A DNA stretch of 29,636 nucleotides. It comes from a virus. Under the pieces are notes generated by a model. That model worked only from the letters and a program-made list of their open reading frames with translations, did not search any database and was not told the DNA's origin. A program made the translations under genes and the position numbers. The stretch spans positions 1 through 29,636 of the IMG/VR virus record IMGVR_UViG_3300030105_000149; one strand, written 5' to 3'. The first letter of the stretch is position 1; every line of letters begins with the position of its first letter. Shown in pieces: positions 211 to 22,968 of this stretch.

Positions 211-935
211 CAGACTTACGACTTGGCGATTGCTTAGAAGTAATGAAGTCTATACCTTCAGGAAGTATTGATGCTATCATAACCGACACTCCTTACGGAA
301 CAACCGCCTGCAAGTGGGATTCTGTAATTGATTTTGAGTTAATGTGGGAACAACTAAATAGAATCATTAAACCAAATGGGGCTATTGTTTTGTTTGGTAG
401 TGAACCTTTCAGTAGTGCTTTAAGAATGAGCAATATAAAGAATTATAAATACGACTGGATATGGGATAAGAAAATACCAAGCGGAATGTGTAATGCTAAG
501 ATAATGCCAATGCGACAGTCCGAAATTATAAGCGTATTCATTAAAGGTAGGAACTTTTACTATCCGCAAATGACACTTAGGGATAAACCCATTTTAAGTG
601 GTGGCAATAAAGATAGTTTAAGCGGTGGAAATAAAGGTATTAAAGGCGAATTTAAAAAGACATACACTAACAAATATCCTACAACCCATTTAGTTTTTGA
701 TAAAATAAGAAGAGGGAGTTTACACCCAACACAAAAACCCGTTGCTTTAATGGAATACCTAATCAAAACCTACACTAACAAAAATGAAACGGTATTAGAC
801 TTTACAATGGGTAGTGGAAGCACAGGAGTTGCAGCAAAGAATCTTAACAGAAACTTTATAGGAATAGAAAAAGACGAAAACTATTTTAAGATTGCAGAAC
901 AAAGAATAAAAGAAACCGAATATAAATTATTTTAA
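207..935 (+). CDS. DNA N6-adenine/N4-cytosine methyltransferase, allele A
   Basis: This 242-aa protein is a beta-type amino-methyltransferase of the N6_N4_Mtase family, which transfers methyl from S-adenosylmethionine to an exocyclic base amino group. Catalytic motif IV is at residues 27-30, HPTQKP at 173-178 and the SAM-binding LDFTMGSGS at 197-205; this order is normal for the family. Motif IV reads D-T-P-Y rather than D-P-P-Y as in the copy at 28867. Residues 1-84 and about 173-242 match that copy closely, while 85-172 (the likely target-recognition part) are unrelated. The start is GTG overlapping the previous stop; the other copy uses ATG at the same place. The likely role is protection of phage DNA from host restriction. 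Specificity cannot be read from sequence. Confidence 0.9.
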   Translation: MTDLRLGDCLEVMKSIPSGSIDAIITDTPYGTTACKWDSVIDFELMWEQLNRIIKPNGAIVLFGSEPFSSALRMSNIKNYKYDWIWDKKIPSGMCNAKIMPMRQSEIISVFIKGRNFYYPQMTLRDKPILSGGNKDSLSGGNKGIKGEFKKTYTNKYPTTHLVFDKIRRGSLHPTQKPVALMEYLIKTYTNKNETVLDFTMGSGSTGVAAKNLNRNFIGIEKDENYFKIAEQRIKETEYKLF

Positions 936-936
936 T

Positions 937-1188
937 ATGACACTATATACTTGCGAATGTAATAAGACTAAAGAAATAGGGAAGGCTACAATAGTACACA
1001 GAGATGGTAAATGGGTAACTAAGGAAGCGGTCTGTGAATGCGGTAAGTGGATGGATTGCGAGCCAACTGAAGGAATGCCAAGTCTTAAAAGAACAGAACC
1101 AAGCCTAAGTAAGAACAGAGATAAGCTATGGGCAGGAGCTAAAGAAAAGCTAGTAGGCGAAAGGGGAATCAATGAATCTTTTGATTAA
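937..1188 (+). CDS. Small zinc-ribbon-like protein
   Basis: This 83-aa protein is unrecognised beyond its cysteine pattern. A CEC pair near residues 6-8 and a second CECG group around 33-36 flank a short beta-like stretch, giving the spacing of a zinc ribbon. The C-terminal half is charged and lacks a fold I recognise. It begins one base after the methyltransferase stop and its own stop shares an adenine with the ATG of the C5 methyltransferase. It therefore sits in one transcript between two modification genes and might be an accessory to them. The same start is seen at the right edge of the window. Confidence 0.65.
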   Translation: MTLYTCECNKTKEIGKATIVHRDGKWVTKEAVCECGKWMDCEPTEGMPSLKRTEPSLSKNRDKLWAGAKEKLVGERGINESFD

Positions 1189-2270: not shown

Positions 2271-2650
2271 AGTTTGTAATAAAAGACAATAGAGATAAGC
2301 AAAGCCTATTCAGTTACCTAAAGGAATTAGATAACGACTACATAGTTAGTGTAAAGAAACAAAGAAACACAAGAAGCAATATGCAGAATAGTTACTATTG
2401 GAAATGTATCGTTCAAGGACTAGCAGAAGAACTAGGATATTTCCCTGATGAAATGCACGATGTACTAAGAGCTAAGTTCTTATCTGAATATGAAATGATA
2501 AGTATTAACGATAACCAAATAGCATTAAATAAAATAGGAAGTACAACAGCTTTAAACACTAAAGCCTTTGAAGTATATACAGAACAAATAAGAATATGGG
2601 CTATAACTGACTTAGGCATAAGACTTATGCTGCCAAATGAATACGAGTAA
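2267..2650 (+). CDS. ninB: NinB-like recombination protein
   Basis: This 127-aa protein resembles the phage lambda NinB (Orf) family, which binds single-stranded DNA and helps load recombination proteins. What I see is an RSNMQNSYYW segment around residues 36-45, then a helix ending in ELGYFPDEMHDVLR, which is the part typical of the family, and a C-terminal region with charged helices. It starts with ATGA overlap on the methyltransferase stop and ends 15 bases before the terminase gene, separated by one copy of the repeated TTCTATTATATA element. It is therefore probably the last gene of the early transcript rather than a late gene. The family call is by motif only. Confidence 0.6.
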   Translation: MKFVIKDNRDKQSLFSYLKELDNDYIVSVKKQRNTRSNMQNSYYWKCIVQGLAEELGYFPDEMHDVLRAKFLSEYEMISINDNQIALNKIGSTTALNTKAFEVYTEQIRIWAITDLGIRLMLPNEYE

Positions 2651-2651
2651 T

Positions 2652-2663
2652 TTCTATTATATA
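2652..2663 (+). promoter_or_regulatory. Repeated late element TTCTATTATATA, copy 1
   Basis: This is an exact 12-mer preceded by a further T and followed after two bases by the ATG of the small terminase gene at 2666. It is one of five identical copies, all before structural or packaging genes. With only two bases before the start codon there is no room for a ribosome-binding site. It could be a phage-specific promoter giving a leaderless or internally initiated mRNA, or an RNA-level signal. Function is inferred from recurrence and position. Confidence 0.65.
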
Positions 2664-2665
2664 AT

Positions 2666-3019
2666 ATGGAAACAGAACAAAAGAGGACACAGGAGGGCAA
2701 AAAGAAGCTACTAGCAGCACTAGAGATGTCACTAGGTATAGTAACTGAAGCTTGTGAGAAAGCGGAGATAACAAGAAGCAGACATTACGCTTGGATGCAA
2801 AGTGATGAAGAATACAAGAAAGCAGTTGATGACATTGATAGTAAGTTTATTGACTTTGCTGAAACAAGTTTAAAGAAACAAATCAAGGAAGGCAATACAA
2901 CAGCGACTACTTTTTTTCTAAGAACAAGAGGACGTAAGCGAGGATATAATGAGAAGCAAGAAATAGACTTAACTTCAGGAGATGAAAGAATTAAAATAAA
3001 TATAAATCTTGGTGATTAA
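2666..3019 (+). CDS. terS: Terminase small subunit
   Basis: This 117-aa protein should recognise phage DNA and hand it to the large terminase subunit for packaging. The N-terminal half is a helix-turn-helix (GIVTEACEKAEITRSRHYAW), typical of small terminases with a resolvase-like HTH. The second half is helical with a VDDIDSKFIDFAETSL stretch and the TTFFLRTRGRKRGY segment often seen near the end of these proteins. The last codons overlap the start of the large subunit by 11 bases. An ATG directly after the repeated element is the only good start. The identification rests on this pattern plus the neighbouring large subunit. Confidence 0.85.
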   Translation: METEQKRTQEGKKKLLAALEMSLGIVTEACEKAEITRSRHYAWMQSDEEYKKAVDDIDSKFIDFAETSLKKQIKEGNTTATTFFLRTRGRKRGYNEKQEIDLTSGDERIKININLGD

Positions 3020-4340
3020 ACCTGACTTATTAGAAATCAATCCTCAATTTACACCGAAACAAAAGGAATGCTTAAAGTATCTATTTGACGATAAGACTAA
3101 AGAGGTTTTATTTGGAGGAGCAGCAGGAGGAGGAAAGTCTTGGGTAGGTTGTAGTTACTTAATTACTATGTGCCTTCAATATCCTAAGACTAGATACTTG
3201 ATGGGAAGGTCAAAGTTAGACGCTTTAAAAAAGACTACACTAAATACATTTTTTGAAGTGTGTACTGAGTGGAACTTAAAAGCTATTAAGGATTACACGT
3301 TTAACGGCTCTAGTAATGTGATAACCTTTTACAATGGTTCTGAGATAATTCTTAAGGACTTATTCCTTTACCCTTCAGACAGGAACTTTGATAGCTTAGG
3401 TTCACTTGAAATAACAGGAGCTTTTATTGATGAAGCAAATCAGATAACTGAAAAGGCTAAAAATGTAGTAGCATCAAGACTTAGATACAAGCTAGACGAG
3501 AACGGCTTAATACCTAAGATGCTTATGACTTGTAATCCTGCAAAAAACTGGGTGTACTCAGAGTATTACAGACCTGCTCAAGACAATACAATAAAGCATT
3601 ACAGAAAGTTTATACAGTCTTTAGTGATAGATAACAACTACATCTCTAAGCACTATGAAACTCAGCTATCTCAATTAGATGAATTAAGTAAGCAAAGACT
3701 TCTATTTGGTAATTGGGAGTATGACGCAACAGCTGATAGCTTAATAGATTACAATTCTATTATGAGTATGTTCAGTCAGAAAGGAATAGAAGGTGATAAA
3801 TACATAACTTGTGATGTAGCACGATTTGGAAGCGATAAGACAGTTATAATGCTTTGGCAAGGGTTACACATTGGATACATAAGAACTATCCTTAAATCGG
3901 CTGTAAATGAGGTTGTGGACGAGATTAAGAAACTACAACAAGAGAATGAAGTAAATCTTAGGAATATCATAGTAGATGAGGACGGAGTCGGTGGTGGTGT
4001 AAAAGATTACTTAAGATGTCAAGGATTTACAAATAATGCTAGACCTATAAAAGGAGAGAACTATCAGAACCTAAAGACTCAATGCTATTACAAATTAGCA
4101 GACCAAATAAACAAAGGACAAATTGGAGTAAGTTGTTCAGATGTAAATGTTAAGAATTACATAACTGAGGAGCTAGAACAAGTCAGAACTAAGGACGCAG
4201 ATAAAGATAACAAACTACAAATAATTCCTAAAGATACAGTCAAGTCTATTTTAGGTCGTTCTCCTGATTATGCTGATGCTTTAGCTATGAGAATGTTTTA
4301 TGAGTTAGATAGTAACTTTGGAAGGTATTACGTGCAGTAA
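3009..4340 (+). CDS. terL: Terminase large subunit
   Basis: This 443-aa protein is the packaging motor, an ATPase plus endonuclease that acts at the prohead portal. The Walker A loop GGAAGGGKS is at residues 36-44 and the Walker B aspartate-glutamate pair is at 141-142 in GAFIDEANQ. The RNase H-like nuclease has acidic residues at Asp269 (CDVARFGSD), the D-E-D group at 323-325 and Asp420/Asp423 in SPDYADAL. The length is typical. The start is non-ATG: TTG at 3009 or GTG at 3012, both inside the terS end, so translation is probably coupled. The next gene lies 32 bases downstream behind another repeated element. Confidence 0.97.
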   Translation: MVIKPDLLEINPQFTPKQKECLKYLFDDKTKEVLFGGAAGGGKSWVGCSYLITMCLQYPKTRYLMGRSKLDALKKTTLNTFFEVCTEWNLKAIKDYTFNGSSNVITFYNGSEIILKDLFLYPSDRNFDSLGSLEITGAFIDEANQITEKAKNVVASRLRYKLDENGLIPKMLMTCNPAKNWVYSEYYRPAQDNTIKHYRKFIQSLVIDNNYISKHYETQLSQLDELSKQRLLFGNWEYDATADSLIDYNSIMSMFSQKGIEGDKYITCDVARFGSDKTVIMLWQGLHIGYIRTILKSAVNEVVDEIKKLQQENEVNLRNIIVDEDGVGGGVKDYLRCQGFTNNARPIKGENYQNLKTQCYYKLADQINKGQIGVSCSDVNVKNYITEELEQVRTKDADKDNKLQIIPKDTVKSILGRSPDYADALAMRMFYELDSNFGRYYVQ

Positions 4341-4356
4341 ACTAAAAACAACTAAT

Positions 4357-4368
4357 TTCTATTATATA
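4357..4368 (+). promoter_or_regulatory. Repeated late element TTCTATTATATA, copy 2
   Basis: This exact copy lies in the 32-base gap between terL and the tail chaperone gene and ends four bases before the ATG at 4373. Upstream bases AACAACTAAT resemble those before the copy at 14615. It probably starts or regulates the tail transcript. Inference only. Confidence 0.65.
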
Positions 4369-4372
4369 CTGT

Positions 4373-4972
4373 ATGAAAGTTAAAATTAAAAAACAAGGCA
4401 AAACAGAATCATTTAATCTTATTGATAGTTGGTCAGATGTAACTCTGGAAAAGTGGTTGCAACTTATTGATTTTGAAACAGGTACAAAGACTGAAGAAGC
4501 TACTGAAACAATAGCAGCGTTATCAGACGTTCCTAAGCAGTTAGTAAAGGAATTAGCCTTATCAGATGTTGCAGTTATAATGAGCAAGATAGCAGAACTT
4601 CAGTCTAAGCAAGATACAAAGCTAAAAAGGATAATTGAGATAAACGATATTGAGTACGGCTTTCATCCTGACTTGGATTCAATTACTCTGGGTGAGTATG
4701 CCGATATCGAGCAGTTTATTAAGAACGGAATAGAAACAAATCTTCCTGAACTAATGGCCGTTCTTTACAGGCCGATAAAAGAAAAGAAGAATGATATTTA
4801 TATTATTGATGCTTATGATGGGGATATTCGGATGCGGACGGAAGAAATGAAACAGATGTCAGCTGAACAGGTGCAAAGTGCGTTGGTTTTTTTTTACAAT
4901 TTCGCGAAAATATTGTCCGAGATTTTGCCATTGTATTTGATGGAGAAGCTGAAGGAAACGAAGACGCAATAG
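4373..4972 (+). CDS. Tail assembly chaperone (gpG-like), zero-frame product
   Basis: This 199-aa protein is the short product of a tail assembly chaperone pair like lambda gpG/gpGT, which coats the tape measure before the tube polymerises. Little in the sequence alone is diagnostic. The call comes from position (after terminase, before tail genes), the mixed alpha-helical acidic composition, and above all the overlapping -1 frame that continues to 5145 with a gpT-like domain. The slip site is the nine-T run at 4887-4895. After that site the zero frame adds about 25 residues ending LKETKTQ. The start directly follows the repeated element. Confidence 0.7.
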   Translation: MKVKIKKQGKTESFNLIDSWSDVTLEKWLQLIDFETGTKTEEATETIAALSDVPKQLVKELALSDVAVIMSKIAELQSKQDTKLKRIIEINDIEYGFHPDLDSITLGEYADIEQFIKNGIETNLPELMAVLYRPIKEKKNDIYIIDAYDGDIRMRTEEMKQMSAEQVQSALVFFYNFAKILSEILPLYLMEKLKETKTQ

Positions 4973-5145
4973 CAAGTGATGACTTTGCAAATAAATGGGG
5001 ATGGTTTGGCGTAATGCACAGATTGTGCGGAGAAAATATTAGTAATTTAGAAACAATTACAAAGCTAAGTCTTTTAGAATGTTTGACTTGGTTAAGTTAT
5101 GAAACAGATTTAAACTCACAAAATAAAGTTAAAAGAAATGGTTAA
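4373..5145 (+). CDS. Tail assembly chaperone gpGT-like -1 frameshift fusion
   Basis: Joining 4373-4894 to 4894-5145 by a -1 slip gives a 257-aa fusion. The heptamer T TTT TTT at 4888-4894 is in the right phase for X XXY YYZ slippage, inside a run of nine T. The -1 frame is open from there to the TAA at 5143-5145. It encodes a segment with FANKWGWFGVMHRL and LSLLECLTWLSYE, the aromatic and leucine pattern of the T part in chaperone fusions. It has no good start codon of its own and otherwise fills a 165-base gap between genes. The next gene overlaps its end by eight bases. Polymerase slippage on the T run is an alternative mechanism. Confidence 0.75.
4887..4895 (+). promoter_or_regulatory. Slippery T9 run for -1 frameshifting
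   Basis: Nine consecutive T follow GG and precede ACAA. In the zero frame the codons are GTT TTT TTT TAC, so a -1 slip of both tRNAs onto TTT TTT keeps perfect pairing. This is the transition between the short and long tail chaperones. I did not identify a downstream pseudoknot. Confidence 0.7.
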
Positions 5146-5686
5146 TAACAAGACATACAATAATGTAGTTAATACTTTACTTAGATTAGGCCAATATCAC
5201 GAACAAATTAGCACAACTTCAGTAGGTGATATTTATGACGTCAATCTTGAAAAGATGCAGAAGTTTCCATTACTTCACATAAACCCTACAAGCGTATCTA
5301 CAGGAGATAGTCAATTGACCTACTCGTTCCAAATATTCATAATGGATATGGTAACAGAAAAAGCTAATTGGACAGAGAACAATGACCAAGCAGATTTTCC
5401 TAAATTAGTAAAGACTTTAAGTAATGAGCAAGATGTATTTAATGAAACACTTCAAATATGTACTGACTTTATCGGAATGCTTAGACACAGTTCAAGACAA
5501 TCTTTAGAAGGAGTTAATGACATTAACGAACCTTTATACTTTACACAAGACCAATTTACAATAGAACCTTTTCAAGAGAGATTCGATAACTTATGCTGTG
5601 GTTGGGTATTCAATATTGGCGTCTTAGTTCAGAACGACTTTCAAACTTGTGAAATTCCTGTTCGCCCATTTGGAGCAGGTTACTAA
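5138..5686 (+). CDS. Putative tail terminator or completion protein
   Basis: This 182-aa protein has no motif I can name with certainty. The central beta-rich part (LLHINPTSVSTGDSQLTYSFQIFIMDM) and the end (CGWVFNIGVLVQND then CEIP) resemble small phage proteins that cap tails or join head and tail, which are often found beside the tail chaperone genes. It overlaps the frameshifted chaperone end by eight bases and is followed by a tiny frame. A structure-based comparison would decide between tail terminator and another connector. Confidence 0.4.
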   Translation: MVNNKTYNNVVNTLLRLGQYHEQISTTSVGDIYDVNLEKMQKFPLLHINPTSVSTGDSQLTYSFQIFIMDMVTEKANWTENNDQADFPKLVKTLSNEQDVFNETLQICTDFIGMLRHSSRQSLEGVNDINEPLYFTQDQFTIEPFQERFDNLCCGWVFNIGVLVQNDFQTCEIPVRPFGAGY

Positions 5687-5760
5687 TGTTCAAGTTCAAG
5701 ATATGGAAAATGATAATACAAATAGGATGGAAAAAATTTAAAATAACAATAAACTTATAA
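5686..5760 (+). CDS. Possible 24-aa peptide
   Basis: This small frame begins with a TAATG overlap on the previous stop and ends four bases before the next gene, filling the gap exactly. The peptide is rich in Lys, Ile and Trp (starting MFKFKIWKMI). Its fit between neighbours is the only support; it may be a non-functional frame. Confidence 0.3.
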   Translation: MFKFKIWKMIIQIGWKKFKITINL

Positions 5761-5764
5761 AATT

Positions 5765-6220
5765 ATGGCAGACTTAGTAACAACAATTAGCGAAACGGTC
5801 ACTTTAAACGGAAGTTTAAGGGGGTCGGTAAACTCAGTAACAACTACAGGAATCAATGACGTATTTGAAAGGATAGTAACTTGTGTTCATTCTCAGACTA
5901 CTACAATAGCAACATTTGCTGCAGCACCTTATACTTCAGTAGGAGCTATTGATGTAGATGATGTTAGATATGTACGGGTTACAAATTTAGATACAGAAGG
6001 AACAATAGAGTTAGCAGTTGTAACGACAGCATCTAATTATCAAGTAAGACTAACAGCAGGTACTTCACATATTTTAGCTAGAGCAAATGAGTCAGCTTTA
6101 GCTGAAGAAGATACAAGTCCTTCTTTTGGAACTATGGAGAATCTAGCATCTTTACAAGTAAGACCTGACGGAACTACTTACAATCCAAGAGTAGAAATAT
6201 TTGTAGGTGTAGCTGAGTAA
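5765..6220 (+). CDS. Unidentified beta-rich structural protein
   Basis: This 151-aa protein is rich in Thr, Val, Ser and Ala with few Lys, as expected for a virion protein. A middle segment DDVRYVRVTNLDTEGTIEL looks like paired beta strands, and the N-terminus contains a VTLNGSLRGSVN repeat-like stretch. It could be a tail tube, decoration or neck protein; nothing separates these. Its stop shares a base with the next ATG. The position between tail chaperone and baseplate genes favours a tail role. Confidence 0.45.
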   Translation: MADLVTTISETVTLNGSLRGSVNSVTTTGINDVFERIVTCVHSQTTTIATFAAAPYTSVGAIDVDDVRYVRVTNLDTEGTIELAVVTTASNYQVRLTAGTSHILARANESALAEEDTSPSFGTMENLASLQVRPDGTTYNPRVEIFVGVAE

Positions 6221-6756
6221 TGGACACAGCCAATATAGAAAGGTACTTGAATAGCTTTGGTAGGCAAGTAGTTGCTCAATCAAAAACTACTCTTAATTTT
6301 AAAAAAGGTGGGGATAGTAAGTTAGAAGAATCTATTAGCTTTAAAGTTATCAAAAAAGGTGAAAATTATACAGTACAATTCTATATGTCAAGCTATGGTC
6401 AGTTTGTAGATAAAGGGGTTTCAGGAACGCAAAAGAAAAGAACCTTTAAAGACTATAAAAGCAAAGTAATAAAAAGTCCTTATAGCTACAAGAATAGTAA
6501 AGGACATTCACAACCTCCTAGCAAGGCTTTGGATGGTTGGGCTGTAAAGAAAGGAATAGCACCAAGGGACGCAAAGGGAAGGTTTATGAAAAGAAAGACT
6601 TTGACATTCTTAATTGCTAGAAGTATAGGACGTAACGGAATACAAGGAATAAGCTTTTTTCAGAAACCTTTAGGATTAGGATTAAAACAGTTCGGCAAAG
6701 AATTACTAGGAAGCGTAAAAGAAGACATAATTAACAGTTTAATAACAGTAAAATAA
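6220..6756 (+). CDS. Putative neck/tail-joining protein (HK97 gp10-like)
   Basis: This 178-aa basic protein has a central YGQFVDKGVSGTQKKR segment followed by PPSKALDGWAVKKGIAPRD and a FLIARSIGRNGI helix. The 'Y-x-x-(Y/F)-V-(D/E)-x-G' core with a following 'P' and 'aR' region recalls HK97 gp10-like minor tail or head-tail joining proteins. The function would be to bridge portal or connector with tail. It overlaps the previous gene and runs directly into the following one. This is a resemblance, not a firm assignment. Confidence 0.45.
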   Translation: MDTANIERYLNSFGRQVVAQSKTTLNFKKGGDSKLEESISFKVIKKGENYTVQFYMSSYGQFVDKGVSGTQKKRTFKDYKSKVIKSPYSYKNSKGHSQPPSKALDGWAVKKGIAPRDAKGRFMKRKTLTFLIARSIGRNGIQGISFFQKPLGLGLKQFGKELLGSVKEDIINSLITVK

Positions 6757-8157
6757 ATGGCAACAATAATAGAACAACAACCGCTTTCTAATCCGGGAAC
6801 TTTTGATAAAGTTTTACCTGTAGGTCAAGAAATAATTTATACAGTTTCTAATTCTTCCGTAGTTTCTTCTTTCACAAATGTGAAGTTTATTGCAGAGGTT
6901 CGTATCAGCTCAGGGCTACCACCTAATCCAGCTACTTCAGATGACTTAGTAGGTACTTTTAAAACATCACCAAATAATGCAGGAGTAGGTATGTTTGACT
7001 TCAGACCTATTATTGAAAGCTTTGTAAATGCTGATAACTTAGCAAGGGAAGGAAGTAAGTATAAAACAGTAGTAAATACATCAAACTCTAATGTGCCTAT
7101 GCACTTAATAGATAGGTACTCAGGAAACATAAATACAATGCGTTGGTTTAATGTTAAGTTTATGGTTGAATATATAGACGCTTCAGGAAACCTAGTAACA
7201 AATTCTGAAGTGATTGCAGGATTAAGTATTATTTTTAATGGATACTTAAAATATACGGATGAATTACTTTTATCAGGAGTAAATTTTGGCTATAACTTGT
7301 ATTCTCATTTTAAATTAGACGGTTCAACTAAGAAATTCTTAACTAATGCACCGACAACTCAATACGCTAACTTAGAAGATTACGGAACAGTAGGAATGTT
7401 ACTACCTTCTGTTGCTGAAGGAATAGAAATTATTTATTTTGATTCATCAGGTGGTGTTTTAGGTCAAGAGCAAATTAACTTTACTGTAGCGAATGGCGGC
7501 TTTGTTTATCCACAAGCCAATATACAAGCATTCTCAGCATACTTTGGCTGTTTCCCTGCTAATTTACAAGGTAGTAGTACAATGTTTCAAGGGTTTGTAA
7601 GTGCAGGTACTATTCAGGGTGGTCATTATAATTTCGCTGTTTTAAATGACACAGGACAAGCTGTTTCATCAACCTATACAATAAACCTTAACTGTCCTAC
7701 ACTTAAAGGATATGAACCTATTAGGCTAACTTGGTTAAATCAATGGGGTGCTTGGGATTATTATACTTTTACAATGAAGTCTACTAAAACAATATCAACT
7801 AAAGGAAGTACATATCAACAACTTCAGGGAACTTGGAATAAGTCTTCTTATAAAATAGACAGCTTTAAGGGAGGTAAAAAAGCCTTCAGAGTAAACGCTA
7901 CAGAAAAGATTAAGATGAACACAGACTTTGTTAGCGAATCAGAATCAGAATGGTTTGAAGACCTTATAAACAGTCCTGAAGTATATATATTAGAAGGCTT
8001 CCAAGACGAAGTTAATAATTCAGCTTTAAATAAATATGTAACACCTGTTAGGCTAACAACTTCAAGCTACACTAAAAAGACTGTAGCAAACGATAAACTT
8101 ATGCAATACACTTTTGAAGTAGAAAAGAGTAAAACATTAAGAACACAATCAGTATAA
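6757..8157 (+). CDS. Putative baseplate or distal tail protein
   Basis: This 466-aa protein lacks named motifs. It is beta-rich and begins with a segment (about residues 25-100) resembling a fibronectin-like strand pattern, including FDFRPIIESFV. The C-terminal 80 residues include SESEWFEDLINSPEVYILE and a ...PVRLTTSSYTKKT... stretch that read like a tail hub or distal tail fold. The gene follows the neck-like protein by one base and overlaps the next by one base, so it belongs to the tail operon. I have seen similar proteins beside the tape measure in flavobacterial phages, always without a known function. Confidence 0.4.
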   Translation: MATIIEQQPLSNPGTFDKVLPVGQEIIYTVSNSSVVSSFTNVKFIAEVRISSGLPPNPATSDDLVGTFKTSPNNAGVGMFDFRPIIESFVNADNLAREGSKYKTVVNTSNSNVPMHLIDRYSGNINTMRWFNVKFMVEYIDASGNLVTNSEVIAGLSIIFNGYLKYTDELLLSGVNFGYNLYSHFKLDGSTKKFLTNAPTTQYANLEDYGTVGMLLPSVAEGIEIIYFDSSGGVLGQEQINFTVANGGFVYPQANIQAFSAYFGCFPANLQGSSTMFQGFVSAGTIQGGHYNFAVLNDTGQAVSSTYTINLNCPTLKGYEPIRLTWLNQWGAWDYYTFTMKSTKTISTKGSTYQQLQGTWNKSSYKIDSFKGGKKAFRVNATEKIKMNTDFVSESESEWFEDLINSPEVYILEGFQDEVNNSALNKYVTPVRLTTSSYTKKTVANDKLMQYTFEVEKSKTLRTQSV

Positions 8158-10892
8158 TGAGTATACAACTAATAGTATATCCACAGAACTATGACGGAGA
8201 TTACAATGCAATTTCAAGTTCACCTACTGAATTTCTTGTTAATGGTATTAACTTTAATAATTTAAATAACACAGGAACTTATACAAGTAGTGTAAGTGTT
8301 CCTTATGTAGATACGCTTACAAATGCACCTCCTACTATTAGCAATACTTGGTATAGGTTCAGAAATAACACAGCAGGAACACCTGATTACCCTTCAGTAG
8401 TTGCAGGGGATTTAGTTTTAAAAACTACAGCAGGATCAACAGGAAGTAGGTCAGGTATTTATCAAAAGCTTTCTAATTTAACAATAGGAGCACAATACAC
8501 TATTACAATAAATCTTAGTGTAGGTACTACAGGACTTATTCTTACTAAAATAGCAAACGGAACGACACTCTATGCTCAAGTAAATTCTTCAGCAAATACT
8601 ACCCAAGTAACCTTGAATTTTAATGCTCAATCTACAGATAGTACTATAATGATTGTTTATTATAATACTATAATCGGTACAGCTACAATTACAGACATTT
8701 CAATACAACCTGTTATCGGTGCAATACCTTCAGGAGCTACTAATGTTTTAGATAATGGTCAAGTTCTTTGCGACCTCTATGAAGATGAAGACATCCCATT
8801 AAGTCTTAGTGTTGATGACTTTAAAAATGTAGCAGAAAAAGTACAATCATATTCTAAGGCTTTTAATCTTCCTGCAACAAAAAGAAATAATAAAATCTTT
8901 GATAATATATTTGAGATTACAAGAAGTAATGACGGTGTAATATTTAATCCTTATAAGAAAACAAAATGCGTTTTAAAGCAAGACGGATTTATTCTATTTG
9001 AAGGATATTTAAGAATGTTAGATGTAACAGATAAGGAAGGAGAAACAAGTTACAATGTAAACCTTTATTCAGAAGTTGTAGCCTTAGCTGATGTTTTAGG
9101 TGATAGAGTTTTTATGGATTTAGGGTTTGAAGAACTAGAACACGATTATAATAGGACACAGATTCAGAATAGTTGGAATGCAGGAATAATTTATCCGAAC
9201 CCAAGTACATCAGGATTCAGAGATGCTAATACAGTAAAATACCCTTTTGTAGATTGGACACATCAAATTGCAGTAGGAGGTTCAGCAGCAGCAGCAGCAG
9301 CCGCAGGTCGCCCAGAACTACTACTTTTAGAAACAGCTTTCAGACCTTTTATAAATATCAAGTATTTAATTGACAGAATATTTGCAAACATTCCTTTTAC
9401 TTATGAAAGCGTGTTCTTTGATTCAGATGACTTCAAGAAACTTTTTATGGACTTCAATTGGGGTGCTGAAGAAAATGGTGCACAACCTTATGCTGATAAT
9501 TATTTACTTCAAGGCGATAACATTTCAAGTGATTATTTTATAAATGAAAGCTCGTATACAGCAGCTTCAAAATTAAGATTCAACTTAACTGTTAGTGGAA
9601 ATAACGACTATTGGAATAATACGAGCTATAAATATATATCTCCTGTAAATAATCTTGAAGTAGACTGTGAATATTACATTAAATTAGAAAGTGACGCAAC
9701 TGTTTCTACTTATTCTAATAATTTAAGGATAGCAAAATTTGATGGTTCCAATAATCACTTAGAAACGCTTGCTGTTAATAATGATAGTATTGTAGCAAAT
9801 GGTAATAAGTTTCTTCAGGGAACTTTCTCTACAGTATTACAGGCTAATGAATATATACAGGCACAAAGTTATTCATTAACAGCTGATAAAATTAGAATGA
9901 GTAATGACTCTATTGGGGGTTATGGTAGTTGGTTGGAATTTGATTCTACAAATGAAGGAAGTCTAGTATCTAATTTACTAACTAGAACAAGAGGCGAACT
10001 AGGTCAATGGGATTTTATAAAAGGATTGGTGACTATGTTTAATTTAGTTACTTTACCTGATGAAGATAATCCTAACAATATAAAGTTTGAACCTTATTCA
10101 GATGTATTTGTAAATAGTACTGATAGTATTCAGTTAGATTGGACTGAAAAGATAGACGTATCAGAAATGAAACTTACTCCTTTAGCTGATTTGAATAAAA
10201 AAACTATTTTTAAGTTTGTTGAAGATGAGGATGATTTTTCATTTAATCAGTATAAAAATGATGTAGGCGGTCATTTATATGGAAGTCAAAAGTTTAACGC
10301 AGGAAATGAATTTAATATATTAGAAGGAACGGAAGAAATTGTAGCAGAACCTTTTGCAGCTACAATAGTCAAGCCTTTAATGTCACAATACTCTGAATTT
10401 ATAACTCCTGCAGTTTATTCTATGAATGATGACGGAGTTTCTGAGGCTTTTGAAAACAGTCCTAGAATTATGTTTAATAATGGAGTAAAAGATACAGGAA
10501 CTTCTTATTATATACCTGCTCAAAATGGTGTGTCTGATGACCAACAAACAGACTTCTTGCAGTTTAGTCATTTATCAGATGTACCTACTATACAAGCAAC
10601 TTCTTCTGTAGCAGGTTCAAGAGATTTTCATTTTGGGATTTGCCAACTTATGTCAAATGTAGGTGCTCCTGTTCCTGCTAACTTGTTTAACTTATATTGG
10701 CTTCCGTACTATTCAGAACTTTACAATCCGAATACTAGAATTATGACTATCAAAGTAAACCTTAGTCCTGCCGATATCAATAGATTCAGGTTCAATGATA
10801 CCGTATATCTAAAGAACAGAGTATTTAGAGTAAACAAAATAGACTACAAACCTAACGACTTAGCGAAAGTTGAATTTATACTTATACCATAA
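8157..10892 (+). CDS. Large tail hub/adhesion protein with beta-sandwich inserts
   Basis: This 911-aa protein is the largest in the genome. A baseplate-type core is suggested by VQSYSKAFNLPATKRN and the following LKQDGFILFEGYL segment around residues 222-290. Residues about 55-190 look like a carbohydrate-binding beta sandwich (SGIYQKLSNLTIGAQYTITI, ending ATITDISIQP), and about 455-610 like a second. A run of seven alanines sits at 377-383. The C-terminus is again beta-rich (NRFRFNDTVYLKNRVFRVNKI). The likely role is host attachment at the tail tip. The domain calls come from strand pattern only. Confidence 0.5.
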   Translation: MSIQLIVYPQNYDGDYNAISSSPTEFLVNGINFNNLNNTGTYTSSVSVPYVDTLTNAPPTISNTWYRFRNNTAGTPDYPSVVAGDLVLKTTAGSTGSRSGIYQKLSNLTIGAQYTITINLSVGTTGLILTKIANGTTLYAQVNSSANTTQVTLNFNAQSTDSTIMIVYYNTIIGTATITDISIQPVIGAIPSGATNVLDNGQVLCDLYEDEDIPLSLSVDDFKNVAEKVQSYSKAFNLPATKRNNKIFDNIFEITRSNDGVIFNPYKKTKCVLKQDGFILFEGYLRMLDVTDKEGETSYNVNLYSEVVALADVLGDRVFMDLGFEELEHDYNRTQIQNSWNAGIIYPNPSTSGFRDANTVKYPFVDWTHQIAVGGSAAAAAAAGRPELLLLETAFRPFINIKYLIDRIFANIPFTYESVFFDSDDFKKLFMDFNWGAEENGAQPYADNYLLQGDNISSDYFINESSYTAASKLRFNLTVSGNNDYWNNTSYKYISPVNNLEVDCEYYIKLESDATVSTYSNNLRIAKFDGSNNHLETLAVNNDSIVANGNKFLQGTFSTVLQANEYIQAQSYSLTADKIRMSNDSIGGYGSWLEFDSTNEGSLVSNLLTRTRGELGQWDFIKGLVTMFNLVTLPDEDNPNNIKFEPYSDVFVNSTDSIQLDWTEKIDVSEMKLTPLADLNKKTIFKFVEDEDDFSFNQYKNDVGGHLYGSQKFNAGNEFNILEGTEEIVAEPFAATIVKPLMSQYSEFITPAVYSMNDDGVSEAFENSPRIMFNNGVKDTGTSYYIPAQNGVSDDQQTDFLQFSHLSDVPTIQATSSVAGSRDFHFGICQLMSNVGAPVPANLFNLYWLPYYSELYNPNTRIMTIKVNLSPADINRFRFNDTVYLKNRVFRVNKIDYKPNDLAKVEFILIP
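9285..9305 (+). repeat. GCA trinucleotide run encoding seven alanines
   Basis: Five GCA codons are followed by GCC and GCA inside the large tail protein, giving residues 377-383 all alanine between GGS and GRP. It is probably a linker. Such runs can change length by replication slippage without breaking the frame. Confidence 0.85.
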
Positions 10893-11749
10893 TGTCTAAA
10901 ATAACTACAATACCATACATAACAGGATTTGCTGTAAAACCTTTAACTACTTCAGGAATAGGGATTGTAACCTTTACTGACGGAACAAATGAAGTAACAC
11001 CGAACCAATTACAATGTGAAGCGTATGGGTATACCTACAATAAAGCTTTAGGAACTTGTAAAGCGTTTACGTACAATACAAATCTTAATACAGCTATTGC
11101 AAATGAGAATAACAAGACTTACGGGGTAGGAAACTCAACAGAAACAGGTACAAACTTTACCTTAGTAATGGGAGAAAGTAATACTGTTAGAGGTTTGTCA
11201 AGAAATAACATTATAGTAGGAAACCAAAACGAAATTGCAAACGGCGTCAACAATGCTAACGTATACGGTACTTTAGGACAGGCTACAGCTGATAACTCTA
11301 TTGTCTTAGGTGGTAACGCTTCTGATGACAATTTAGCTGAAAGACAAAGCATTCATTTAATGTATGGGCAACAAACTACTAGTGCTGCTACAGTAGATTC
11401 TAATTTAAATAATACAGCAGCAAGTTATTTTGTAATTCCTGATAATACTATTATTTATTTTCACGCAACTTGTTTAGCTGTTAGAGTTGGTGGTACAAGT
11501 GCTTCAGGCGCACCTGGAGATTATTTAAGTCTTATAGAAAGAGGGGTTATAATTAACAAGTCAGGAGTTTTAAGTATTCAAAGAGAACGAGATGTTATTA
11601 AGTCTTCAGGAACGACTTCAGGGTGGGTTTCTACAGCTGCTATTTCAAGTGGTAATTTCACAATAAGAGTAAGGGGTGCAAACAATATGACGTTAGAATG
11701 GGCTTGTGATATTAAATTAACACAAATTAAAACAGGAGTAACTTTATAA
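10892..11749 (+). CDS. Putative tail fibre with YadA-like repeats
   Basis: This 285-aa protein has a region at about residues 88-150 with repeated N-x-I-x-x-G-N-x-N patterns (SRNNIIVGNQNEIANGV and NANVYG). This is the left-handed beta-roll signature seen in trimeric adhesin heads. The C-terminal half is a beta-rich domain (residues about 170-285) that may bind a receptor. It follows the large tail protein with a one-base overlap and precedes the tape measure by ten bases. The role of fibre or receptor-binding protein is inferred from pattern and place. Confidence 0.5.
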   Translation: MSKITTIPYITGFAVKPLTTSGIGIVTFTDGTNEVTPNQLQCEAYGYTYNKALGTCKAFTYNTNLNTAIANENNKTYGVGNSTETGTNFTLVMGESNTVRGLSRNNIIVGNQNEIANGVNNANVYGTLGQATADNSIVLGGNASDDNLAERQSIHLMYGQQTTSAATVDSNLNNTAASYFVIPDNTIIYFHATCLAVRVGGTSASGAPGDYLSLIERGVIINKSGVLSIQRERDVIKSSGTTSGWVSTAAISSGNFTIRVRGANNMTLEWACDIKLTQIKTGVTL

Positions 11750-11759
11750 AAATAAAATT

Positions 11760-13361
11760 ATGGCAAAGGAAGTATTAGAAATGGAAGTAAAGTCAAATAT
11801 TGGCGCTGTTACAAAAGACACTAAGAAACTAGCTCAAAGCACAGTTTCCGCTAAAAAAGGTTTTAAAGGAATGGGAACAGCCATTAAAGGTGTTGGAATG
11901 GCTATGAAAGCAGCAGGAATAGGATTGATTATAGCTTTATTTGTAGCACTTAAAGAAGCAGTTCAAAGGAATCAAAAGGCTATGGATTTAATGGAAACTG
12001 TACTAACTACTGTATCTACTACTTTCAATCAACTCGTTACCGTCCTTACAGATGTCGTTACTTGGGTTACTGAAAGCACAGATAGGTTCGACGCACTAGG
12101 AAAGGTATTAAAGAGTGTTATAACTCTAGCATTAACCCCTTTGCAACTTTCTTTTTATGGGCTTAAATTAGGAGTTCAAGAAGCGATGTTAGCTTGGGAA
12201 GATAGTTTCTTAGGTGGCGGAGATAAGGGTGTTATAGCTTCTTTAAAAGCTGATATATTAGAAACCAAAACTTCCTTATTTGATTTGAGTATTGCTGCAG
12301 TAGACGCAGGTAAGGATTTAGTAAATAATTTTAGTGAGGCAATAGATGAGGTAGGAGGTATATATGATAAGGTAGCTGCCGGTATTACTGACATCTCTCT
12401 GAAAGCTAATTATGAACAAGCACAAGCAACAATTGCAGCAGTTAAAGCAGCTAAATTTGCAGCAGCAGAATTTGCAAAGTTAAATGCAGAAAAATTAAGA
12501 GAAGCAGAATTATTTAGACAAATAAGAGATGACGAAACTAAGACTTTTGCAGAAAGGATCCAAGCTAATAAAGACTTAAAAAAATCTTTAGAAGAACAAC
12601 AGGAACTTCAGTCTAAACAAATACAGAAACAAATAACAGCAGCAGCGTTAGCAGTAGAGCAAAACGGAAATGATGAAAACAAGTTAGCGTTATTAGAAGC
12701 TCAAAACGCACAGCTTGAACTTGAAGAAACTATTACAGGACAGTTGTCAGAGCAAAAGACAAACGCCGTAGCTTTAGAGAAAGAACTATTAGCAACACAA
12801 AATGAATTAAGAGCAGAAGGACTTTCAGGATTAGAAAGGGAATTACAAGAACTTCAAGACGCTTATGACTTAAAACTAGAAATGGCTAGGAAGTCAGGAG
12901 TAGATACTACAGCTATTACCAAGGAATTTGAGAAACAAAAGACTCAAGTAGTACAAGCTAATCTAAATGAACAATTAGAAGCGTTTTCAGGGCTTGCAGG
13001 AGCATTAAGTGCTTTAGCAGGGGATAACAAAGATTTAGCCGTAGCAAGCGCAGTAATAGATACTTATGTAGGAGCAAATAAAGCCTTTGCACAAGGAGGA
13101 GTTGCAGGATTCGTAACAGGTGCAGCCGTAATTGCAGCAGGGTTAAATAATGTAAGGACTATATTAGCAACAGATGTTCCTGGTACTACAGGAGGTGACA
13201 ACCCACCGCCAGCTGCACCACCTGCACCTCAAATGATGTCAGGAGCTTTTGATATATCAGGAGGAGTAGCACCTGAACCGGTTGAAGCATTTGTTTTAAC
13301 CGATTCTATGACAAACAGTCAGAACCAATTAGCAAATATTAGAAGAAGAGCTACAATATAA
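11760..13361 (+). CDS. Tail tape measure protein
   Basis: This 533-aa protein fixes tail length and is thought to enter the host envelope during DNA ejection. The N-terminus carries a KKGFKGMGTAIKGVG segment followed by a strongly hydrophobic helix (AAGIGLIIALFVAL) near residues 52-66. Residues about 215-400 are alpha-helical coiled coil rich in Glu, Gln and Ala. A second hydrophobic Ala/Gly-rich stretch lies around 420-475, then a Pro-rich linker and an ending IRRRATI. It is short for this class. At roughly 1.5 angstrom per residue the tail would be about 80 nm, a family rule of thumb rather than a measurement. Confidence 0.85.
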   Translation: MAKEVLEMEVKSNIGAVTKDTKKLAQSTVSAKKGFKGMGTAIKGVGMAMKAAGIGLIIALFVALKEAVQRNQKAMDLMETVLTTVSTTFNQLVTVLTDVVTWVTESTDRFDALGKVLKSVITLALTPLQLSFYGLKLGVQEAMLAWEDSFLGGGDKGVIASLKADILETKTSLFDLSIAAVDAGKDLVNNFSEAIDEVGGIYDKVAAGITDISLKANYEQAQATIAAVKAAKFAAAEFAKLNAEKLREAELFRQIRDDETKTFAERIQANKDLKKSLEEQQELQSKQIQKQITAAALAVEQNGNDENKLALLEAQNAQLELEETITGQLSEQKTNAVALEKELLATQNELRAEGLSGLERELQELQDAYDLKLEMARKSGVDTTAITKEFEKQKTQVVQANLNEQLEAFSGLAGALSALAGDNKDLAVASAVIDTYVGANKAFAQGGVAGFVTGAAVIAAGLNNVRTILATDVPGTTGGDNPPPAAPPAPQMMSGAFDISGGVAPEPVEAFVLTDSMTNSQNQLANIRRRATI

Positions 13362-13381
13362 ATCAAATAAACTAACTTAAT

Positions 13382-13393
13382 TTCTATTATATA
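13382..13393 (+). promoter_or_regulatory. Repeated late element TTCTATTATATA, copy 3
   Basis: This exact copy lies in the 46-base gap between the tape measure and protease genes, 14 bases before the ATG at 13408. It marks the beginning of the head gene group. Bases AACTAACTTAAT before it resemble those at other copies. Confidence 0.65.
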
Positions 13394-13407
13394 AAAAAGA
13401 CTTTACT

Positions 13408-14592
13408 ATGCCTTGCGAAAAATGCGAAAACGGAAAATACAAATGGGGAAAGACAGGAAGCTGCACTTATGACTCAGTAGCTGAATGTGAAGAAGACAAT
13501 AAAGACTATTACGAAAAGACTACTTCTATTGTTGAACTAATAATTGCAGACGATAGTCAAGAGTTGGCAATTGACGCTATCAGTTTAGTTACAAGTCCTG
13601 CCATAGAGCAAGACTTTGTATTCTTTGGTAAAGAGAAAAACAACTTAACCTTTGCTAAAGTAGATGAGGAGAAAAGAATGTTAGTTAGTCCTGCTTTGAT
13701 TCCTAATAAAAATATTTTCAGACATAATCCTAATACGCAAGAAGACTACTATGTTTACTTTTCAAAAGAAACAGTCCGTAAAGCTTCTGAGTTGTATTTA
13801 AAACATAACAACCATCACAAAGCTACATATCAACACCAAGACAGAGTTTCAGGAATACTTACAGTTGAATCTTGGATTATTGAAGATACTAAATTAGATA
13901 AGTCTACTTTGTATGGCTACTCACTTCCTGTAGGAACTTGGATGGTTAAATTATCTATTTCAAATGATGAAATTTGGTCTAAGATAAAAAACGGAGAATT
14001 AAAAGGTCTTTCAATAGAAGGCTACTTTACTAATAAATTTGAACAAATGCAAAAGAAACAACCAACAACAGAACAAATACTAAGTGCTTTAAATGAATTA
14101 GTAAGAGAAGGTAAAGTTACTACAATGAGCAAAGCTAATAGAGTTGAATTAGGGCTAACGCAAGATGTAGAAAAGCTTATCCAACAGGCTAAAGATTTAA
14201 TGCCTGATTTGAAAAGAGATGTAGACGCTATTAAAGTTTCTGAAAAGAATATAACTCAAGCAGGAAAACAAATAGATAAAAGAGAAGGGGTATTAAAAAA
14301 AGCTGAAGATAATTACACAAAGTATTTTAGATTATTAGATACTGCTGAAGATAATAGGAATACAGCTAGAAGGGAACTTAAAGAAACTGAAGGAACTTTA
14401 GAAAGCAATAAGAAAAGTGTTGACTTTTACAATAAAAGATTAGACAAAACAAAAGGGAAAGCTTCTAAAACAAGAAGTAGTTTAGAAAAGAAATTAGATG
14501 ATTTAGAAAAAGCAGCAAAAAACTTAGACGTTAAAATACCTGCTACTAAAGAAGCTGCAAATATCTTAAAGAAATTGATACCATTATTGTAA
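13408..14592 (+). CDS. XkdF-like prohead protease with coiled-coil tail
   Basis: This 394-aa protein has three parts. Residues 1-30 hold cysteines 3, 6, 19 and 27, possibly binding zinc. Residues about 85-210 match the XkdF-like putative serine protease domain (Peptidase_S78_2): MLVSPALIPNKNIFR, YYVYFSKETVRKA, TYQHQ with His143, VESWIIED and GLSIEGYF with Ser202, the probable catalytic His and Ser. Residues about 215-394 form a long charged helix or coiled coil that could act as scaffold. It lies just before the scaffold and capsid genes, as expected for the capsid maturation protease. Confidence 0.75.
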   Translation: MPCEKCENGKYKWGKTGSCTYDSVAECEEDNKDYYEKTTSIVELIIADDSQELAIDAISLVTSPAIEQDFVFFGKEKNNLTFAKVDEEKRMLVSPALIPNKNIFRHNPNTQEDYYVYFSKETVRKASELYLKHNNHHKATYQHQDRVSGILTVESWIIEDTKLDKSTLYGYSLPVGTWMVKLSISNDEIWSKIKNGELKGLSIEGYFTNKFEQMQKKQPTTEQILSALNELVREGKVTTMSKANRVELGLTQDVEKLIQQAKDLMPDLKRDVDAIKVSEKNITQAGKQIDKREGVLKKAEDNYTKYFRLLDTAEDNRNTARRELKETEGTLESNKKSVDFYNKRLDKTKGKASKTRSSLEKKLDDLEKAAKNLDVKIPATKEAANILKKLIPLL

Positions 14593-14614
14593 AAACCAAA
14601 CAGAACAACAACTA

Positions 14615-14626
14615 TTCTATTATATA
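14615..14626 (+). promoter_or_regulatory. Repeated late element TTCTATTATATA, copy 4
   Basis: This exact copy sits in the 54-base gap before the scaffold candidate, 20 bases upstream of the ATG at 14647. It is preceded by AACAACTA, shared with copy 2. Confidence 0.65.
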
Positions 14627-14646
14627 TAGAACCTAAAAATTAAACT

Positions 14647-15309
14647 ATGGATTTAAAGAATCAAATATTAGTAGCACTTGGACTTGACAAAGAAGTGTCT
14701 TTAGCTTGGCAAGCAAAATCAGAAGACGGAACTATTTTCGTTTCAACAGCTGAAGAATTAACTGAAGGTGTGGACGTAAGCGTTCTTACTGAGGACGGAA
14801 CGACAATTTTATTACCCATCGGAACTTACAAGACAGATACAGGAGTAACTTTTGTTGTGAGTGAGGAAGGTATTGTGGATTCTGTAGCTGAAACGGAAAC
14901 GGAAGAAGTAGTAGAAGAAGAATTAGCTGAAGATGACGGCAAAGAAGCCGACGTTGCCGACTGGCAGGGAATGGAGAAAAGAATCCAGAACTTAGAAGAT
15001 GCTGTAGCTGATCTTAAAAGAGATAAAGACGGAGGTGATGACGAGGTTGAAGAAATGGCTGAAGAAGTAACAGAGCCTTCTACAAATCCTAAAACTATAA
15101 CTACAAAAGAAGTAGTTGAGTTCTCAGCAGAAGACGAATTAACAAAGTTAAAAGCTGAAAATGATAAATTAAAGACTGAATTAGCAGAATCTCCTGCATC
15201 AGCACCTTTAGATACAAACAAATTTAGCGCAGAGAAAAAAGCTGTATCTAAATTAGACTATTCAAAAATGAGTAAGAACGAGAAGTTTTTACATAACTTA
15301 TATAAATAA
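14647..15309 (+). CDS. Acidic scaffold candidate
   Basis: This 220-aa protein is very acidic in the middle (residues about 80-145, many Glu and Asp), with a coiled coil at MEKRIQNLEDAVADLKRD and another at LTKLKAENDKLKTEL. The end has KLDYSKMSKNEKFLHNLYK, a basic helix like those by which scaffolds hold the capsid protein. The gene lies between the protease and the major capsid gene, the usual scaffold position. No sequence family is recognisable to me. The opposite strand is open for 131 codons, but only as a mirror of the acidic codons. Confidence 0.55.
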   Translation: MDLKNQILVALGLDKEVSLAWQAKSEDGTIFVSTAEELTEGVDVSVLTEDGTTILLPIGTYKTDTGVTFVVSEEGIVDSVAETETEEVVEEELAEDDGKEADVADWQGMEKRIQNLEDAVADLKRDKDGGDDEVEEMAEEVTEPSTNPKTITTKEVVEFSAEDELTKLKAENDKLKTELAESPASAPLDTNKFSAEKKAVSKLDYSKMSKNEKFLHNLYK

Positions 15310-15330
15310 TAACTAAAAAAAACAAACAAA

Positions 15331-16257
15331 ATGGCGTTTACTACGACAAGCAATTTCGCAGGGAAGGCAGCTGGATTCTACATCTCAGCAGCTTTAAAAC
15401 AAGCAGTATCACTTGACTATTTAACTTCAATAGAAAATATCAAGTTCAAATCTAACATCCAAAAAATGGATGCAACAGTTTCACCTATTGCAGCAGCAAC
15501 GTGTGATTTCACAGGAGCAGGAACGCTTGCTTTAACTGAGAAGGTGTTAGAACCGGCTAATCTTCAAATTAACCTTGACTTATGTAAGGCAACTCTTTTA
15601 GATTCTTGGGAAGCGTTACAAATGAGAGCAGGAGCAGGCGCACCTCCTCCAGCATCTTTTGATGACTATGTAATCTCTTATATGGGAGATATTATCGGTC
15701 AAGCTACTGAAAATTCTATTTGGGCAGGTGTAGCGAATGCAGGTGGTGACTTTATCGGATTCACAGGAGCAGGAGCAGCAGGATGGTTAAGAAATGGAAA
15801 TGACGCAACAGTTGTACAAGCAGTTTTAACAGGTGGTGCAGGTGTAGCTCCAACTGATGCAACTATTATTGCTGATATTCAAGCAGGATTAAATGCAGTA
15901 CCGGCAGCAGTTATTGGTAAAGAAGATTTATATATCTACTTAAACCAAAAGAACTACCAATTATACATCCAAGCAATTTCTAAATTAGGTTACTTAAACG
16001 CTTACAATATGCAAGGTGATTACGTTCCAATGTTCAACGGAATCAAAGTAGCTGTAGTTAATGGATTACAAAATGCAGCAATCGTTATAGCTGAGAAATC
16101 AAATATGTTTTTCGGAACTGACCTTTTAAGTGACGCTACACGTATTAACTTGCTGGATATGAGCACGTTAGACGGAAGTGACAATATGAGAATGGTAGCT
16201 CGTTACTCAGCAGGAACTCAAACAGGAGTAGGAGCAGATATCGTACTTGTAGCTTAA
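15331..16257 (+). CDS. Major capsid protein (HK97-fold, putative)
   Basis: This 308-aa protein should form the capsid shell. It is Ala/Gly-rich, with an N-terminal arm, a segment DDYVISYMGDIIGQATENSIW resembling the spine-helix region, and an end with FNGIKVAVVNGLQNAAIVIAEKSNMFFGTDLL. That end is the usual 'P-domain strand then exposed loop' pattern of HK97-like capsid proteins. It follows protease and scaffold and precedes a hairpin. Its codon choice is more regular than that of its neighbours, as for a highly expressed gene. No other protein in the window fits better. Confidence 0.8.
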   Translation: MAFTTTSNFAGKAAGFYISAALKQAVSLDYLTSIENIKFKSNIQKMDATVSPIAAATCDFTGAGTLALTEKVLEPANLQINLDLCKATLLDSWEALQMRAGAGAPPPASFDDYVISYMGDIIGQATENSIWAGVANAGGDFIGFTGAGAAGWLRNGNDATVVQAVLTGGAGVAPTDATIIADIQAGLNAVPAAVIGKEDLYIYLNQKNYQLYIQAISKLGYLNAYNMQGDYVPMFNGIKVAVVNGLQNAAIVIAEKSNMFFGTDLLSDATRINLLDMSTLDGSDNMRMVARYSAGTQTGVGADIVLVA

Positions 16258-16271
16258 TAAATAAATAATAC

Positions 16272-16301
16272 GGAAGTGAGGGGGTAAAACCCTTCACTCC
16301 C
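16272..16301 (+). other. RNA hairpin after the capsid gene
   Basis: Bases 16275-16283 pair with 16290-16298 (nine pairs, one G-U) around a six-base loop, with two more G-C pairs outside one A-C mismatch. It is followed by a run of twelve A rather than T, so it is not a standard terminator on this strand. It may protect the capsid mRNA end or reduce read-through. Confidence 0.6.
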
Positions 16302-16324
16302 TTAACCTAAAAAAAAAAAATAAA

Positions 16325-16888
16325 ATGGCTTGTACAGCACTAACAAAAGGTAGGGGACTCGACTGTAATAGAATCAGTGGAGGAATCAAATTTATTTATT
16401 TTGCAGTTTACGACCAAGTAACCTCTATACCACAAACAGCAGGAGAAGTAACAGACATTGAAATGGGTTCTGATGTACTTTACAGATACACTATGCCTTT
16501 AGGTGTGGCTTCTGCAACCGACACAATCGTAGGTTCACGTGAAAACGGGACGATTTACTATACTCCAACTTGTAATATCATACTTAACAGACTTACGAAG
16601 GAAGACCAAAATCAGATGAAATTATTAGGCGCAACCAAAACAATCGTTTTCGCTCAATTAAATCAAACACTAGCTAATGGGCACGATGTTATAATTGCTT
16701 TAGGAACTACAAACGGAATGGAACTTAATGCAGGTACTATGGACTCAGGAGCAGCGTGGGGTGACCGTAATGGTTACACTCTTACTTTCGACGGAATGGA
16801 AGCTTTACCTTTTCCAATGGTAGCAGACTACACTACAGTACCATTTGATAATTCAGCATTTACAATGGGAACAATAGTTACATCTTAA
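16325..16888 (+). CDS. Putative major tail tube or decoration protein
   Basis: This 187-aa beta-rich protein follows the capsid gene and is closed by a strong terminator, which suggests a highly made virion component. It starts MACTALTKGRGLDC and has GGIKFIYFAVYD, a middle with GTIYYTPTCNIILNRLTKED, and an end with GDRNGYTLTFDGMEALPF. This alternation of strands with one helix fits a tail tube protein, which this genome should possess and which I cannot place elsewhere. A capsid decoration protein is the alternative. The call is by elimination and composition. Confidence 0.45.
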   Translation: MACTALTKGRGLDCNRISGGIKFIYFAVYDQVTSIPQTAGEVTDIEMGSDVLYRYTMPLGVASATDTIVGSRENGTIYYTPTCNIILNRLTKEDQNQMKLLGATKTIVFAQLNQTLANGHDVIIALGTTNGMELNAGTMDSGAAWGDRNGYTLTFDGMEALPFPMVADYTTVPFDNSAFTMGTIVTS

Positions 16889-16915
16889 TTTTCTTATCTG
16901 TTTTCTTATAATCTT

Positions 16916-16949
16916 AAAAGGGTAGCTTAATTGTTACCCTTTTTCTTTT
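16916..16949 (+). terminator. Rho-independent terminator
   Basis: Bases 16916-16926 pair with 16933-16943 (eleven pairs with one G-U) around a six-base TTAATT loop, followed by a T-rich tail to 16949. This is a typical intrinsic terminator, ending the capsid transcript just before the next repeated element at 16983. Confidence 0.85.
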
Positions 16950-16982
16950 AAAACACTACAGAACCAAATAGAAACAGACTTT

Positions 16983-16994
16983 TTCTATTATATA
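16983..16994 (+). promoter_or_regulatory. Repeated late element TTCTATTATATA, copy 5
   Basis: This exact copy ends two bases before the ATG at 16997 and lies 33 bases after a strong terminator. A terminator followed directly by this element is the best argument that it starts a new transcript. Confidence 0.7.
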
Positions 16995-20809: not shown

Positions 20810-20811
20810 TT

Positions 20812-22356: not shown

Positions 22357-22357
22357 G

Positions 22358-22962: not shown

Positions 22963-22968
22963 ATTTAA

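Follow-up and report, generated by a model that had tools for sequence, protein, structure and literature searches.

The late and middle sigma factors of phages, such as T4 gp55 and SPO1 gp28, redirect the polymerase of the host. For the sigma factor gp36 of phage phiEco32, the motif tAATGTATAtA has been described, which lies 6 to 8 nt before the transcript start (PMC4281155), and 12-bp promoter elements have been predicted in phage 7-11 (PMC4331800). The housekeeping promoter of Bacteroidota, by comparison, consists of a TTTG and a TAnnTTTG element (-33/-7) (PMC6847099).

The window analyzed here, which comprises an entire 29,636-base IMG/VR record of a marine phage, carries five copies of a bipartite element in gaps before late genes. 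Judging from sequence patterns and a structural model, these elements very probably are late-gene core promoters that are read by a phage sigma factor together with the host core polymerase. From the TAnnTTTG boxes and, separately, from the closest named phages, we infer a Bacteroidota host.

A bipartite element before the late genes

The late region is ordered from the terminase subunit genes (TerS and TerL) through the head maturation protease to the portal, and the early region (22147-28194) contains genes for SSB, a replication initiator, a methylase, and NinG. The late-region features are as follows.

2633-2663, plus strand: candidate late promoter 1 (upstream half 2633-2641, 12-mer 2652-2663), before TerS; ATG at 2666, 2 nt on
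2666-4340, plus strand: terminase small and large subunit genes, behind candidate late promoter 1
4338-4368, plus strand: candidate late promoter 2 (upstream half 4338-4346, 12-mer 4357-4368), before the ORF at 4373; ATG 4 nt on
From 4373, plus strand: late protein ORF, function unassigned, behind candidate late promoter 2
13363-13393, plus strand: candidate late promoter 3 (upstream half 13363-13371, 12-mer 13382-13393), before the head maturation protease; ATG 14 nt on
13408-14592, plus strand: head maturation protease-like gene, behind candidate late promoter 3
14596-14626, plus strand: candidate late promoter 4 (upstream half 14596-14604, 12-mer 14615-14626), before the ORF at 14647; ATG 20 nt on
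From 14647, plus strand: structural-region protein ORF, behind candidate late promoter 4
16916-16943, plus strand: intrinsic terminator-like hairpin, upstream of candidate late promoter 5
16964-16994, plus strand: candidate late promoter 5 (upstream half 16964-16972, 12-mer 16983-16994), before the ORF at 16997 and the portal gene; ATG 2 nt on
From 16997, plus strand: ORF directly upstream of the portal gene, behind candidate late promoter 5
17483-19468, plus strand: portal gene, within the unit behind candidate late promoter 5

A scan of both strands of the whole window for the 12-mer TTCTATTATATA returned exactly the five copies that the sequence-only reading had counted (2652, 4357, 13382, 14615, and 16983), all on the plus strand, with no exact match on the minus strand. 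It had also placed them before late genes and outside the early region, and indeed every copy lies within the gap upstream of a late-region ORF (2666, 4373, 13408, 14647, and 16997), and the early region holds no exact copy. The distances from the 12-mer to the ATG (2, 4, 14, 20, and 2 nt in site order) agree with its statement that three copies end 2 to 4 nt before an ATG, namely, those at 2652, 4357, and 16983, and the copy said to follow a terminator is the one at 16983, behind the hairpin. Chance clustering was rejected, as 0.01 copies would be expected in the window, and none of 100 shuffles reached five.

With two mismatches allowed, the 12-mer alone occurs in the window at chance level (18 found versus 14.9 expected), and the signal therefore resides in the exact, bipartite form. 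This full element is YMAAMYRRA-N10-TTCTATTATATA, with the 12-mer as its downstream half; all five sites and no other site in the window match it, and a search for the upstream half followed at the same spacing by a 12-mer with up to three mismatches found nothing else in the window. The shared upstream bases proposed earlier, AAC(A/T)ACT, have to be replaced accordingly by YMAAMYRRA at a fixed 10-nt spacing. For the upstream profile, sites were grouped by downstream protein family, and each independent upstream context was given one vote (n = 8), since the unweighted profile was dominated by two orthologous sites. Counting back from the 12-mer, all eight contexts have A at -17 and -16, T or C at -14, and A or G at -13 and -12. 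The nine upstream positions carry 9.6 bits, a figure flattered by their having been chosen with the profile already seen, compared with 3.6 ± 0.75 bits in randomly shifted alignments (maximum of 6.6 in 2000).

The element is highly conserved in relatives. Across some 250 related virus loci, it keeps an exact 12-mer upstream of ten unrelated gene families, and among 156 related loci this 12-mer is the most frequently repeated one; there, it has 245 forward and 7 reverse occurrences. In a larger set of relatives, 358 of 373 forward sites lie closely upstream of an ORF, the other 15 being cut by contig ends. Even in L162 and L163, whose sigma factors are only 60 to 65% identical to that of the window, the 12-mer is still exact and found at the corresponding genes. 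All 21 contigs of 26 to 32 kb carry three to five copies each on one strand, with one extra copy on the opposite strand in three of them, and the reversed pattern was found in none of the 21. Such few, highly conserved copies on one strand, confined to gaps before late genes, are a trait of late promoters served by a phage-encoded sigma.

Several further observations concern the relatives and the record. In one subgroup (L197, L201, L203-L206, L209, L216-L218, and L220), the 12-mer upstream of TerS is extended to the palindrome TTCTATTATATAATAGAA, and the element is therefore readable on both strands there. A palindromic operator was rejected, because 11 of the 19 reverse matches in relatives stem from this extension at a single site. 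At L162:12487, L205:12495, and similar loci, which have a different TerS, an inverted repeat (TTGATTAATCAA or ATTGAATAATCAAT) lies in the leader between element and ATG and might form a hairpin or serve as an operator of the terminase genes. Public genome bins labeled Pseudooceanicola and Euryarchaeota contain the phage contigs L162 and L163, which are probably misbinned phage DNA. The ends of the window (1-958 and 28661-29636) carry the same genes twice (nucleotide kinase-like and methylase) at an inexact identity of about 90 to 91%, reflecting either a true duplication or an assembly in which variants of one genome, circular or with terminal redundancy, were joined. Several DNA methylase genes (207-935, 1188-2270, 25818-26447, and 28867-29613) are present within this one small genome, and one of its methylase genes shares 86% DNA identity with Rhodobacteraceae phage LS06-2018-MD05, which suggests recent exchange.

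The phage sigma factor and its proposed role

The following features of the early region bear on how the element may be read.

21844-21874, plus strand: sequence resembling a host-type promoter (TTG...TATATTTG), at the head of the early region
26867-26874, plus strand: host-type TAnnTTTG box (TATCTTTG), 4 nt upstream of the first ORF in the sigma gene cluster
27228-27797, plus strand: phage ECF-type sigma-70 factor of 189 aa by family match and predicted fold, proposed reader of the late promoters

The TAnnTTTG box upstream of the sigma cluster is present in 86 of 87 unique upstream sequences and lies 2 to 4 nt from the ATG in 85 of these. No such box occurs in any of the five late gaps; the 12-mer had been described as unlike the host promoter, which holds, and a host-promoter reading of it was rejected on this ground. 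A scan with an E. coli-type sigma-70 promoter model stayed below its chance level. The absence of the box also bears on the idea that the element is a site for some other phage regulator, an activator or repressor acting with the host housekeeping holoenzyme. Further possible DNA-binding proteins are encoded by this phage, for example, at 23678-24265 (a weak DnaA-C/HTH match). However, such a regulator would work in gaps devoid of a host box, and the element ends 2 to 4 nt before the ATG at three sites, which leaves no room for a separate downstream core promoter. As its bipartite, non-palindromic, one-strand form is moreover that of a promoter, we consider a regulator site very unlikely.

The sigma gene, on which the proposed mechanism hinges and which was overlooked in the sequence-only reading, is located toward the end of the early region and encodes a divergent ECF type. 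All 28 members of the sigma family match the sigma70-ECF model TIGR02937 (best, 9.1e-14), although the window's own protein, at 26.6 bits, stays under the curated cut-off of 42.9. Its AlphaFold model is of moderate confidence (pLDDT of 71.6, with a flexible middle or unresolved linker), and a structure search with it returned sigma factors at nearly all top ranks. In the model, residues 122-189 superpose on sigmaE region 4 in complex with -35 DNA (2.1 Å over 67 residues) and residues 1-94 on Bartonella RpoE (3.8 Å over 82 residues). At this moderate confidence, the model has the ECF architecture, that is, regions 2 and 4 with a linker and neither region 1.1 nor region 3. In the family alignment, the C-terminal helix-turn-helix stretch is nearly invariant, as would be expected if the site read by it is invariant. 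No match to the sigma was obtained by tblastn against named phages or in a plasmid collection, and a sequence profile search of the PDB gave no real relative. The gene overlapping its 3' end (27790-28194) encodes a cysteine-rich protein with a weak match to DUF6171, possibly a sigma partner. The sigma family was found in 21 of 21 long contigs, all with the 12-mer; seven of these (L096, L130, L142, L148, L150, L154, and L161) were first retrieved via terminase similarity alone, and the co-occurrence is in part owed to common descent.

We propose a scenario in which host RNA polymerase with its housekeeping sigma would use TAnnTTTG promoters to transcribe the early region, including the one upstream of the gene cluster containing the phage ECF-type sigma. 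This sigma would then direct the host core polymerase to the five late promoters; the upstream half, YMAAMYRRA, would be read by its region 4, and the downstream half, TTCTATTATATA, would be read and opened by its region 2. RNA synthesis would start on a purine about 3 nt past the 12-mer, and at sites with the ATG 2 nt past the element, the AUG would form the very 5' end of the mRNA. The suggestion of a phage-specific late promoter, already made in the sequence-only reading, is well supported by the fixed-spacing bipartite form, its exact conservation before ten unrelated families, and a sigma-like gene in each long relative.

A different sigma and element in phage P12024S

The cultured Nonlabens phage P12024S, whose portal protein is related to that of the window phage, offers a parallel. 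It encodes a sigma-like protein (P12024S_33) at 20595-21074, shortly upstream of the terminase, with marginal similarity to the window sigma (24% over 45 residues). TTCTATTATATA is absent from P12024S; instead, AAAAC-N16/17-CGTTAA occurs six times on the forward strand and never on the reverse (0.025 expected), each copy being directly upstream of the ATG of an annotated gene, with CGTTAATA preceding the late-gene ATG. P12024S relatives with sigma factors 48 to 67% identical keep this element upstream of the corresponding genes and lack the 12-mer. Both phages thus have a small sigma gene near the terminase and a bipartite element 2 nt before late-gene ATGs, whereas both halves of the element and their spacing differ, as do the sigma factors, which are only marginally similar. 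Flavobacterium phage 11b, Cellulophaga phage phi10:1, and Polaribacter phage P12002L, which have related terminases, showed no detectable sigma and no 12-mer. Since the P12024S group pairs another sigma with another element and these three phages, in which no sigma was detected, are without the 12-mer, the element follows the sigma.

Bacteroidota possess many ECF sigma factors (PMC7366714), one of which might read the late promoter in place of the phage protein. Such a role is, however, very unlikely in our estimation, given that all 21 long relatives encode a sigma of their own, that sigma and element differ together between two unrelated phage groups, and that phages with no detectable sigma are devoid of the 12-mer as well.

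An RNA signal had been offered as the alternative to a promoter; it would be a processing site or a translation enhancer carried by mRNAs that begin farther upstream. That the element adjoins start codons would suit such a role, as would the fact that hosts in this phylum make no use of Shine-Dalgarno sequences (PMC6847099). The distance to the ATG, however, ranges from 2 to about 43 nt across families, which is ill-suited to a translation enhancer, and just five copies are present for about 40 genes. The upstream half furthermore keeps its fixed spacing even where the preceding gene extends into it, and in P12024S the element changes along with the sigma. We regard an RNA-level signal as very unlikely and favor a promoter read by the phage sigma.

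Predicted start sites and leaders, and comparison with known systems

In six families, the smallest distance between the 12-mer and the ATG is 2 nt. A purine nearly always occupies the third position past the 12-mer, including at sites where this position is not the A of the ATG. Under the simplest reading, transcription would begin at this purine, about 3 nt past the 12-mer. Codon-position variability in the three largest close-ATG families places the beginning of coding at that ATG, mostly without another nearby start codon. As the ATG is at least 2 nt from the element and coding begins there, the transcripts from 2652 and 16983 are probably leaderless. The earlier claim of leaderless mRNAs would accordingly apply, by geometry, to these two sites and nearly so to 4357, where we infer a 2-nt leader, but not to 13382 and 14615, where leaders of about 12 and 18 nt would be expected. 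In Flavobacterium johnsoniae, 87% of predicted transcripts have leaders of more than 10 nt (PMC6847099), and in Bacteroides thetaiotaomicron only about 3.7% of leaders are shorter than 10 nt (PMC7366714); leaderless late mRNAs would therefore be unusual for such hosts.

This opens the way for a broader proposition, the chances of its being right or wrong being about equal: a widely distributed group of marine Bacteroidota phages may use group-specific small sigma factors of their own to produce late mRNAs beginning with the AUG; promoter placement would then couple late transcription to leaderless translation in hosts with few leaderless mRNAs. The proposed sigma-promoter pair is specific and testable for a large group of uncultured marine phages, with a parallel pair in the cultured P12024S. 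Late operons could be read straight from sequence by means of the element, and the two groups form natural sets from which one could work out the sigma residues that determine promoter sequence. The question is also raised of how Bacteroidota ribosomes would start on leaderless late mRNAs.

We found no description of this element in the open-access papers searched, most subscription papers being outside that scope. With T4 gp55 and SPO1 gp28, the proposed system shares the principle of a phage sigma turning the host polymerase to late genes, while the proteins and elements are different. It is more closely paralleled by phiEco32 gp36 and its middle/late promoters (also by SU10 and, as predicted, by 7-11), where a small phage sigma likewise goes with few, nearly identical short late-gene elements. 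The phiEco32 system, however, has a host of another phylum and another motif sequence; in the window phage, the element includes an upstream half with constant spacing and at three sites ends 2 to 4 nt before the ATG, whereas the phiEco32 motif lies 6 to 8 nt before the start of an ordinary leader. The Bacteroidota housekeeping promoter also has two elements, the downstream one very close to the start (PMC6847099), but its sequence is unrelated to that of the late element. In conclusion, a phage sigma with few conserved late promoters is already known; here, a candidate pair of this kind is found for a different host phylum, with a bipartite element that lies nearer to the start codon.
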